Under the pieces are notes generated by a model. That model saw nothing but the letters and a program-made list of their open reading frames with translations. It had not been told where the DNA came from and did not search any database. Below, one piece after another: positions 19,763 through 22,047 of a DNA stretch of 64,000 nt. The stretch spans positions 806,001 to 870,000 of the forward strand of contig NZ_CP045699.1 in assembly GCF_009601765.2 (NCBI RefSeq). Reading direction: 5' to 3'. Made by a program: the position numbers and the translations under genes. How positions within the stretch are numbered: the stretch's first letter is position 1; the number at the start of each line of letters is the position of its first letter. This DNA is from Vibrio algicola (GTDB lineage Bacteria; Pseudomonadota; Gammaproteobacteria; Enterobacterales; Vibrionaceae).

Positions 19763-20072
19763 TCAATGAAAATTGGCCACAGTTTTAGAGTTTTCCCAAT
19801 ATAATTGTTCCGATCTATTAGGTGTTAACCCTCCATTATATTGATGCGGTCTGAGTCGGCTGTAATAACCTGTTATATATTTAATGATGTCTAACCTAGC
19901 TTCCGAAAAGCTACGATAGCCCGTAATGGGCATCCATTCTGTTTTAAAGCTTCGAAAGAAACGCTCCATCGGAGCGTTATCCCAGCAATTACCACGACGT
20001 GACAAACTTTGTTTTAGTTGGTAACGCCATAGTAATTGACGATAATAGCGACTCGTATAATGGCTTCCTTGG
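19763..20072 (-). pseudogene. IS3 transposase orfB, 3' fragment
   Basis: Carries the C-terminal third of the DDE transposase: [19 protein letters not shown], then [20 protein letters not shown] with the catalytic Glu of the D-D-E triad, ending inside the terminal repeat. It is separated from its N-terminal two thirds by the IS110 insertion, so it cannot give an active enzyme. Confidence 0.9.
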
Positions 20073-20087
20073 ATGCCCTTCTAAGAG

Positions 20088-21164
20088 TCAAGTCGTTATT
20101 TGTATACTGTTGATTAAGGCGTTTCTATTTTTCAAAAGGTAATAAATTTCACGTGCTATGTATCTTTTTAAGCAGCGTATAGCTTCCATTTTTGATAATC
20201 CATCAGCCGTTCGTTTTTTGATGTAATCCTTTGAACGCTGCTCAGTTCTAAGTCTACCAATCGCAATAATATGGAGTGCACTATTTGCAGCTCTATCACC
20301 ACCTCGATTAAGCCTGTGTCTATTGGTTTTTCCTGAGGATGCAGGTATAGGGCTAACTCCACATAACGCAGCAAAACTAGATTCAGAGTTTAAACGTTCA
20401 GGGTTATCACCCAACGTTATCAATAATTGTGCGGCGGATTCGTATCCAACGGCTTTTTGTTCGATTAATTCAGGAGCAAGCATGTCAACGATAGAAGAAA
20501 TCATTTTATCTAAATCCGCAATCTCGTCATGAAGTTCAAGATATCTACGAGCTAAGGATTTAAATACGATCCTATATGCGCTAGAAATATTTTTGTAAGC
20601 TGTTAAATCAGGTCTGCTTGATGCTAGTGTGCGAATCAAAGTCATACGAGTCATATGTCTTAATGTATCTCTTATTTCGTCGGGGGAAGATACAATGCTC
20701 GTTCTAATCATCTGAAGGGCAACAGTTCGAGCTGCCATTGCTGTTTTACGGCAACCTTTAAGTATTCTTAGCGACTCAACCATCCCATCTCGCGTCTTTG
20801 GCGTCACCGTGCGTAATTTACTATACGCGGCATGAGCAGCATTTTCTGCGTCTATTGTGTCATCCTTGCCTCGTTTTCTTCGATCAACCTTATCTGGTGC
20901 TGTTACTTCCAATACTTCAATGCCACTGCTTTGCATATAACGAAGCAAGCCCAAACCATACGTCCCTGAACACTCAATACCCACACGTGATATTTTACCA
21001 AATGAAGACATCCACTTTAGCATTTCCTTATATCCATGGCGGGTTGCTGGGAAGTATTCACTTGATAATACTTGATTAGAATCATTGACGATGGCAGCAA
21101 CGTGGATATCTTTATGAGTATCCACTCCACCAATGACATAAGATGAGATTGTACTGGTATTCAT
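20088..21164 (-). CDS. IS110-family transposase/recombinase
   Basis: 358 residues from ATG 21164, preceded by AAGGAG. N-terminal RuvC-like DEDD domain: first Asp in VIGGVDTHKDIHVAAI, Glu in RVGIECSGTYG, and D-D...D in KDDTIDAENAAHAA. C-terminal Transposase_20 domain with FAALCGVSPIPASSGK and the conserved Ser of SSGKTNRHRLNRGGDRAAN. Family enzymes are RNA-guided recombinases that use a bridge RNA from the element. Appears full length; the ORF runs 13 codons upstream but the ribosome site supports 21164. Confidence 0.94.
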   Translation of the reverse strand: MNTSTISSYVIGGVDTHKDIHVAAIVNDSNQVLSSEYFPATRHGYKEMLKWMSSFGKISRVGIECSGTYGLGLLRYMQSSGIEVLEVTAPDKVDRRKRGKDDTIDAENAAHAAYSKLRTVTPKTRDGMVESLRILKGCRKTAMAARTVALQMIRTSIVSSPDEIRDTLRHMTRMTLIRTLASSRPDLTAYKNISSAYRIVFKSLARRYLELHDEIADLDKMISSIVDMLAPELIEQKAVGYESAAQLLITLGDNPERLNSESSFAALCGVSPIPASSGKTNRHRLNRGGDRAANSALHIIAIGRLRTEQRSKDYIKKRTADGLSKMEAIRCLKRYIAREIYYLLKNRNALINSIQITT

Positions 21165-21179
21165 TATTGACTCCTTCAC

Positions 21180-21400
21180 TATATGATCATGGACAAGAGT
21201 CACAAAACCAAATACTTGGACAAGACAGTAATGGGACAGGCGTCAGGCCCTTCTTGAGTCACAAATATTGGCGAGGCAACCCTCACCAAATAATGAAACT
21301 AAGCAATCGACAGATCCAAGGAAGGACACATAAGGTCGATCGCTGTGTGGGTCAGAAAGCTCAGAACATTATTGGTACCATCTTTCAAGCATGAACCAAC
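21180..21400 (-). ncRNA. Candidate IS110 bridge RNA
   Basis: Non-coding end upstream of the recombinase, read on the minus strand. In 5'-3' order it has four guide-like segments. (1) CACAGCGATC (21347-21338), identical to the left side of the occupied target. (2) The complement of ATCCAAGGAAG (within 21325-21313), matching the right side of the target. (3) AGAAGGGC (21254-21247), identical to the element's right end. (4) ATTACT (21232-21227), complementary to the element's left end. A hairpin TTGGTGAGG / CCTCGCCAA separates the two pairs. This matches the target-loop then donor-loop plan of described bridge RNAs. RNA ends are not known. Confidence 0.8.
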
Positions 21401-21445
21401 TTTCTTAGTTAGTGTATGATGAAATCTAGCCAACACATTATTACT

Positions 21446-22047
21446 ATCGCTGTGGAACATAACGCCTTTCGGTTTCCCACGAGACTCAAAAGCCATTGTT
21501 AGTGCTTTTCCTGTTAATTTGCTATCTGGTGATAACGACATTGCCCAGCCAATTGGTTTACGTGCGAATAAATCAATGACAACAGCTAAATACATCCAAC
21601 GATTTCCAGCCCAAATGTAAGTCACATCTCCTACCCAAACTCGATTTGGTTCAGTTACTGCAAATTGTCGATCAAGATGATTAGGTATTTCAATATGCTC
21701 TTGTGGCGCTCGTTTGTATTTATGCTTGGACATTTGGCAACTAACTAAGCCAAGTGATTTCATTAACTTAGAAGCACGATAACGACTCATAGGTACATTT
21801 TTAGCTATTAGCATATCCGCTATGCTTCTCGCTCCTGCTGAACCATTACTCGCAATATGAACTTCTTTGATTAAGCTTTTAAGCTTAATCAATTCAACAT
21901 TCGGCATTTTTGAGCGTGCTTTCCAGTACTTATAACTGCTTCGATTTACACTGAACACTTTGCATAATGTAGTAACGCTATAGCTCTGCTTGAGTTTTTC
22001 GATTATCGAAAATTGTTCAGTGAGTCGGACATCACCAGAGCTGTAGC
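21446..22047 (-). pseudogene. IS3 transposase orfB, 5' fragment
   Basis: In the -1 frame relative to orfA, starting near the slippery heptamer. Carries the HTH_21-like region ([30 protein letters not shown]) and the first two catalytic Asp ([15 protein letters not shown]), then runs into IS110 sequence immediately after H-S-D. Broken by the insertion. Confidence 0.88.

Follow-up and report, generated by a model that had tools for sequence, protein, structure and literature searches.

Judged from its sequence, the IS110-group element occupying positions 20072..21445 (minus strand) of the window, i.e., the whole stretch of 64,000 nucleotides of Vibrio algicola DNA analysed here, is an ISEc21-type element of a known kind, and it very probably carries a bridge RNA that targets the HSD|QGS codons of IS3 transposase genes. 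The evidence consists of direct observations on the position of the element, on its guide segments, on the covariation of the RNA fold and on the correspondence between guides and flanks across its relatives. In the proposed mechanism, a circle would join the right end (RE) of the element to its left end (LE), and the RE-LE junction would create a promoter from which the bridge RNA and the recombinase would be transcribed. The target loop of the RNA would pair with the two DNA strands at the His-Ser-Asp|Gln-Gly-Ser codons in IS3-type transposase genes and the donor loop with the joined ends of the element itself, and the recombinase would exchange strands precisely where the Asp codon meets the one that follows, without any target duplication. 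Since the exchange falls between these two codons, the host IS3 would be broken.

Structural organization of the element

The element corresponds to a net insertion of 1374 bp, the extent of which is defined by four copies in the same genome, with the right end fixed by uninterrupted IS3 relatives. Its recombinase gene (20088..21164, minus strand) encodes 358 residues from an ATG start, with an in-frame GTG at 21203, and 281 non-coding nucleotides separate the left end from the ATG. The protein associates a DEDD/RuvC domain (PF01548, 70.3 bits) with a C-terminal transposase_20 domain (PF02371, 54.6 bits), both above cut-off, and reaches 186.5 bits, for a cut-off of 140, with NF033542, the model of the IS110 RNA-guided transposases. 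It shares 242 of 348 residues (70%) with the protein of an E. coli element (L097) assigned to the ISEc21 family by RefSeq annotation, and the left target guide is identical in both elements.

With respect to distribution, the own genome was the sole match at E <= 1e-60 in a class-wide search of 369 genomes, and 39 of the 196 related genomes matched at E <= 0.001, mostly as remote relatives. The viral_contigs scan yielded one relative, with 43% identity. The L097 element is matched in 1834 of 72,556 plasmid records, and the window element in 996 of 5426 E. coli genomes, many of these matches being short; in both sets, the flanks read are those of L096 and L097 only.

The right end follows from the uninterrupted site. 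Among the 29 IS3 relatives fetched from the search of the 196 related genomes and read by script, the HSD and QG codons are contiguous in 24, these homologues lying at loci other than the pre-insertion site, and in L143, one of the remaining five, an IS110 left end occupies this position. As the uninterrupted relatives read GAY|CAR directly, without intervening bases, the ATC at 20074-20072 belongs to the element; the net insertion includes it with zero duplicated bases, so that no target duplication occurs at the window insertion. The first-pass annotation had placed the right end at 20075, which has to be moved to 20072 on this ground.

A -35-like TTGACT occurs at 20086..20091 (minus strand) and has its partner, AATAAT (21442-21437), across the circle junction. 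In the predicted circle, the joined RE-LE ends would form the promoter-like sequence TTGACT-17-AATAAT, i.e., with a spacing of 17 bp and 10 of 12 consensus matches.

The host IS3 and the four copies of the genome

The IS110 is carried by an IS3-family element of about 1259 bp without the insert (19755..22387, minus strand), recognized from the repeat boundaries of its copies, its split rve domain and the IS3 model NF033516, with which the left piece alone scores 156.1 bits, just under the cut-off of 160. The rve domain of OrfB is split exactly after HSD into a left piece (21446-21958) and a right piece (19766-20071), each of which matches the integrase core model, in agreement with the earlier identification of the target as the HSDQGS codons of an IS3 transposase.

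The own genome (3.5 Mb, 3 contigs) contains four IS110 copies, all at the same IS3 codons, the point first proposed as a check on other copies of the element. Compared to the window copy, the others show no difference, one substitution, and one substitution plus one deletion, respectively, and the IS3 halves differ by at most one base in the three copies compared. In L004 (C1:2328768-2330137), a 1-base deletion splits the transposase frame and a G to A change affects base 10 of the left end. Describing a homologous IS3 as a renewable landing site is reasonable where other genomes are concerned; in the own genome, an exact vacant site of the form CAYAGYGAYCARGGNAG has no match and the four near-full IS3 copies all adjoin the IS110.

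The near-identity of the four IS110 copies, and of the three IS3 copies compared, suggests that one insertion may have spread as a composite. According to this explanation, to which we give an even chance, all copies of the genome derive from a single insertion, the guide matches being real, and the IS3::IS110 composite multiplied later, through IS3 transposase acting in trans or through recombination. The occupation of all four near-full IS3 copies, none of them being empty, fits such a history. IS3 transposition is expected to leave a 3-bp direct repeat, however, and no such repeat occurs at the outer ends of any of the four composites (19755-22387 in the window). The explanation also fails to account for the near-identical elements of other genomes that interrupt plainly distinct IS3 genes, each time at the same codons (L044/L045 and L053/L054), and that show separate insertions.

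The predicted bridge RNA and its guides

The predicted bridge RNA, or seekRNA, region extends over 21204..21376 (minus strand, as for all of the segments below), as delineated by fold and covariation and by a covariance-model score of 168 bits, the window copy being the same sequence as training row L001. Read along the minus-strand DNA, four segments succeed one another at the places previously reported: CACAGCGAT(C) at 21347-21338, CTTCCTTG followed by GAT at 21324-21314, AGAAGGGC at 21254-21247 and ATTACT at 21232-21227.

The left target guide CACAGCGAUC (21338..21347) is the same as the left half of the target, CACAGCGAT (21446..21454), i.e., the His-Ser-Asp codons of the IS3 OrfB as read from the flank, extended by the base that comes next where the site is uninterrupted. 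The first reading of this guide thus stands for nine nucleotides of the present flank, the tenth base, C, matching the uninterrupted target only. The right target guide CUUCCUUG (21317..21324) is the complement of the right half of the target, CAAGGAAG (20064..20071), which comprises the Gln-Gly-(Ser) codons as read from the flank and from uninterrupted relatives. The pairing of this guide had been extended to 20074; it is retained for 20071-20064, the ATC at 20074-20072 being element DNA. The adjacent handshake bases of the target loop, GAU (21314..21316), complement this ATC, the last three bases of the element itself, and not the target codon GAT.

In the donor loop, the left guide AGAAGGGC (21247..21254) is the same as the right end of the element (20082-20075), the right guide AUUACU (21227..21232) is the complement of the left end AGTAAT (21445-21440), and the handshake bases GUC (21224..21226) are the complement, with a G-T wobble, of the target GAT codon at 21448-21446. 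A hairpin (21268..21289) located by the alignment fold separates the two loops. Left guides are accordingly same-sense and right guides antisense in both loops, as first described.

Fold and covariation of the RNA

An alignment of 24 left-end RNAs from Proteobacteria and Actinobacteria was folded by RNAalifold. The target segments share one internal loop and the donor segments another, the hairpin lying in between, so that the loop placement and the hairpin proposed beforehand are both recovered. Nearly invariant GAC/GUC pairs bound both loops. A single-sequence fold of the whole 282-nt left end gave a different and less clear minimum and was superseded by the alignment fold.

Two RNAalifold pairs between the donor guides were left out, leaving 31 pairs. 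Over these, 93.5% of the cells pair, for a shuffled mean of 86.6% and values of 31.8-44.3% when the partners are slid; changes on both sides affect 15 of the 31 pairs (shuffled mean 10.5), and the covariation score amounts to 0.310 vs a shuffled mean of 0.178. Each of these three values was reached by none of 500 shuffles; 26 of the 500 attained the observed number of pair types.

The covariance model built from the 24 rows matched 20 of 29 non-training loci. Ten of them score 95-172 bits; five of these (L045, L054, L062, L063, L097) are close relatives of training rows or nearly copies of them. The ten weaker matches (21-49 bits) include relatives from Pseudonocardia (43-47 bits) and from Gemmatimonadetes and cyanobacteria (21-34 bits). 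The model found no match in the nine other loci (L078, L084, L088, L089, L090, L098, L130, L133, L137), among which L130, L133 and L137 are IS3 loci where none is expected. Across the whole window, Rfam returned no family at gathering score. Between positions 18000 and 24000, the only Rfam match with E up to 1 is PinT, at the IS3 left end (22333-22407; 21.4 bits, gathering 60), and it is probably due to chance.

Handshake triplets without a common core

Because ATC belongs to the element, donor and target share no core dinucleotide, the target having GAY and the donor RTC as the three bases preceding the exchange point. The last three bases of the element are ATC or GTC (ACC in L051), whatever the Asp codon of the target. 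The RNA triplet beside the right target guide is an exact complement of these element bases in 24 of 28 loci and fits the target GAY in none of the 28. The A/G choice at the element end changed at least three times along a 23-row transposase tree. The RNA base at this position follows the choice in 26 of 28 loci, L056 and L047 being the misses; the pattern took the right target guide of L047 out of register and missed that of L086. The donor-loop GUC, which fits the target GAY, is invariant in the 24-row alignment.

In IS621, as Hiraizumi et al. 2024 (PMC11208158) report, the handshake guides correspond to two positions beside the shared CT core, and their pairing with the partner aids the exchange. 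In the RNA of the window element, all three bases of the triplet, those at the core positions among them, appear to be handshake bases; the register match between this RNA and that of IS621 is one that we infer. The plan of target loop and donor loop attributed to the element in the first-pass annotation is thus borne out by the fold, and its label "IS621-type" needs a qualifier, since the shared core dinucleotide is absent. A handshake that extends over the complete triplet, with donor and target bases that differ, may be new.

Relatives and apparently re-aimed targets

Forty-four bridge-RNA rows were read from the fetched loci, with a readable left junction in 33. The 11 others (L050, L058, L062, L065, L074, L075, the second L081 row, L092, L093, L094 and L069) were affected by a contig end, N, or a left end not located or unsure, L069 having two possible left ends. 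An Asp codon adjoins the left junction in 30 of the 33, namely 22 HSD codons, three variants (HTD in L047, HAD in L048, NTD in L072), one IS982 site and four "D|NALAES" motifs. The IS982 site (L051) consists of the YGD codons of a transposase recognized by PF13612 (105.9 bits, cut-off 27), its 65-aa target piece scoring 78.8 bits with NF033520, under the cut-off of 130. The Xenorhabdus genome that has this element in its IS982 transposase (L051:2721, LYGD|KGY) also has a related one whose guides differ and which lies in an IS3 transposase (L122:924, HSD|RGSQY).

The four motif loci (L076, L077, L080, L081) lie at GD..D|NALAES-type codons of Pseudonocardia IS3 transposases, with left junctions near 2742-2747, and the HSDxG motif is intact upstream of the insertion. 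The right side of the junction, which can be followed beyond two codons in L081 and L075 alone, reads NSLVES or NALAES, and the Glu of the NALAES motif, the fifth codon after the junction, is presumably the catalytic Glu of DDE. The left guides, GCTTACGAC or GCCTACGAC (Ala-Tyr-Asp), agree with the CFD, SYD, CYD and CDD codons in 5-7 of 9 bases.

At the 28 Asp junctions included in the tests, left guide and adjoining flank agree in 4 to 9 of 9 bases (mean 7.2), the poorest cases including L054 (4/9) and L063 (5/9). Summed matches amount to 205 of 270 bases for left target guides and flanks (shuffled mean 163.0), 103 of 168 for right target guides and flanks (83.8), 234 of 240 for left donor guides and element ends (216.3) and 155 of 155 for right donor guides and element ends (142.6). 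Each of five guide-DNA pairings lies beyond all 20000 shuffles (0/20000), which ignore the relatedness of the loci. L097 and L077 were dropped from the guide-flank tests as the same elements as L096 and L076, and L069, L062, L065, L082, L093, L074, L092 and L094 were omitted from the left-target and right-donor tests; L082, a clear non-match, was dropped thereby, and the non-matches L046 and L059 were retained. These three are the only readable left junctions, out of 33, that do not match their guide. Insertions at sites at odds with the guides had been named as evidence against guidance: such sites do exist at these three junctions, and the guides nevertheless follow their flanks beyond the shuffles, so that they appear to have been re-aimed in nature.

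At L046 (2708, 4075), both sides of the site resemble the joined ends of the element (AGAAGGGGTC / AGTAAAAG), as though the part of the target loop had been taken by the donor loop. In the cyanobacterial loci L085 and L092, the left guide contains ...TGC and the left flank appears to end in TGC, pointing to what appears to be another target class. Read by eye only, the cyanobacterial and Gemmatimonadetes relatives found by the covariance model show other guides and targets.

For the ISEc21-like clade as a whole, the balance tips slightly towards a joint reading in which donor and target lack a shared core, the right guides complement the triplet of the partner rather than their own and the RNA would consequently read the recombinant junctions, the exchange being driven by the new pairing (a full natural handshake at positions 7-9), and in which the clade evolves by re-aiming at DDE catalytic codons (IS3 second D, IS3 E motif, IS982). 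The breadth of this re-aiming may also be new: among the papers listed for ISEc21, for IS110 elements that target IS3 or IS982 and for handshake guides, in a collection with few subscription journals and no bioRxiv preprints, none reports re-aiming at the E motif or IS982 or donor and target cores that differ.

It could be argued that recognition of the transposase codons by the protein sets the site, the RNA-like matches being relics of a captured target; since the target sequence encodes a catalytic motif and is thereby conserved, any recognizer would look specific. This is nonetheless very improbable, as guides and flanks change together (the IS982 site L051, the E-motif loci L076/L077/L080/L081 and the HTD site L047), donor guides change with the element ends, and ISEc21 was reprogrammed by RNA changes, according to PMC11187229. 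Chance can be dismissed as the source of the four guide matches in the 282-base region: although the segments occur singly in 5, 255, 20 and 1676 of 20000 dinucleotide shuffles, the last figure being that of the 6-nt right donor guide, all four in order occur in none, and the other loci read repeat this plan.

Comparison with known systems

Like the window element, IS4321/IS5075, which target the ends of other transposons, ISPa11 and ISKpn4, all from the IS1111 group, are site-specific. ISKpn4 and ISPa11 are RNA-guided, and the IS1111 group differs from the window element in having the RNA downstream of the transposase gene, a reversed match order and subterminal inverted repeats, as PMC11187229 indicates.

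The closest likeness is to ISEc21 from E. coli, for which Siddiquee et al. 2024 (PMC11187229) describe a target that, in some members of the IS3 family, is made up of the codons surrounding the second D of DDE, an RNA both co-purified and required, a lack of duplication, and reprogramming by a changed RNA; natural redirection is described there for ISMch6. Shared traits are the RNA in the upstream non-coding region, a bottom-strand match preceding the top-strand match, target codons at the second D of IS3 transposases, the lack of duplication and the circle-junction promoter, predicted in the window element. The window element differs by its host, by about 30% protein divergence (measured against L097), by its right target guide (as complement, CAAGGAAGG vs CAGGGCAGG in L096/L097) and by its right end, GGGCATC vs GGGCGTC in L096/L097, with the guide in step (GAU vs GAC).

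As in IS621, judging from PMC11208160 and PMC11208158, a DEDD recombinase is combined with a left-end bridge RNA (predicted here) having two loops and handshake bases, left guides pairing with the bottom strand and right guides with the top strand. In IS621, however, a CT core is common to target and donor and present in all four guides, whereas the window element opposes GAY to RTC and its right guides fit the bases of the partner. IS3 as a whole word does not occur in the main text of Durrant et al. 2024 (PMC11208160).

Biological significance

The RNA-guided targeting shown for ISEc21 finds support here from sequence alone, and a natural series of re-aimed guides is supplied together with their targets. 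Owing to the unlike donor and target bases, genomes show which guide bases pair before and which after the exchange, a distinction that IS621 hides because its core is identical, and one that matters for the rules by which programmable bridge recombinases are designed. By aiming at codons that its victims can hardly change, a mobile element gains a wide landing range. If the joint reading of handshake and re-aiming is true, these elements would represent a lineage specialized in disabling other transposons.
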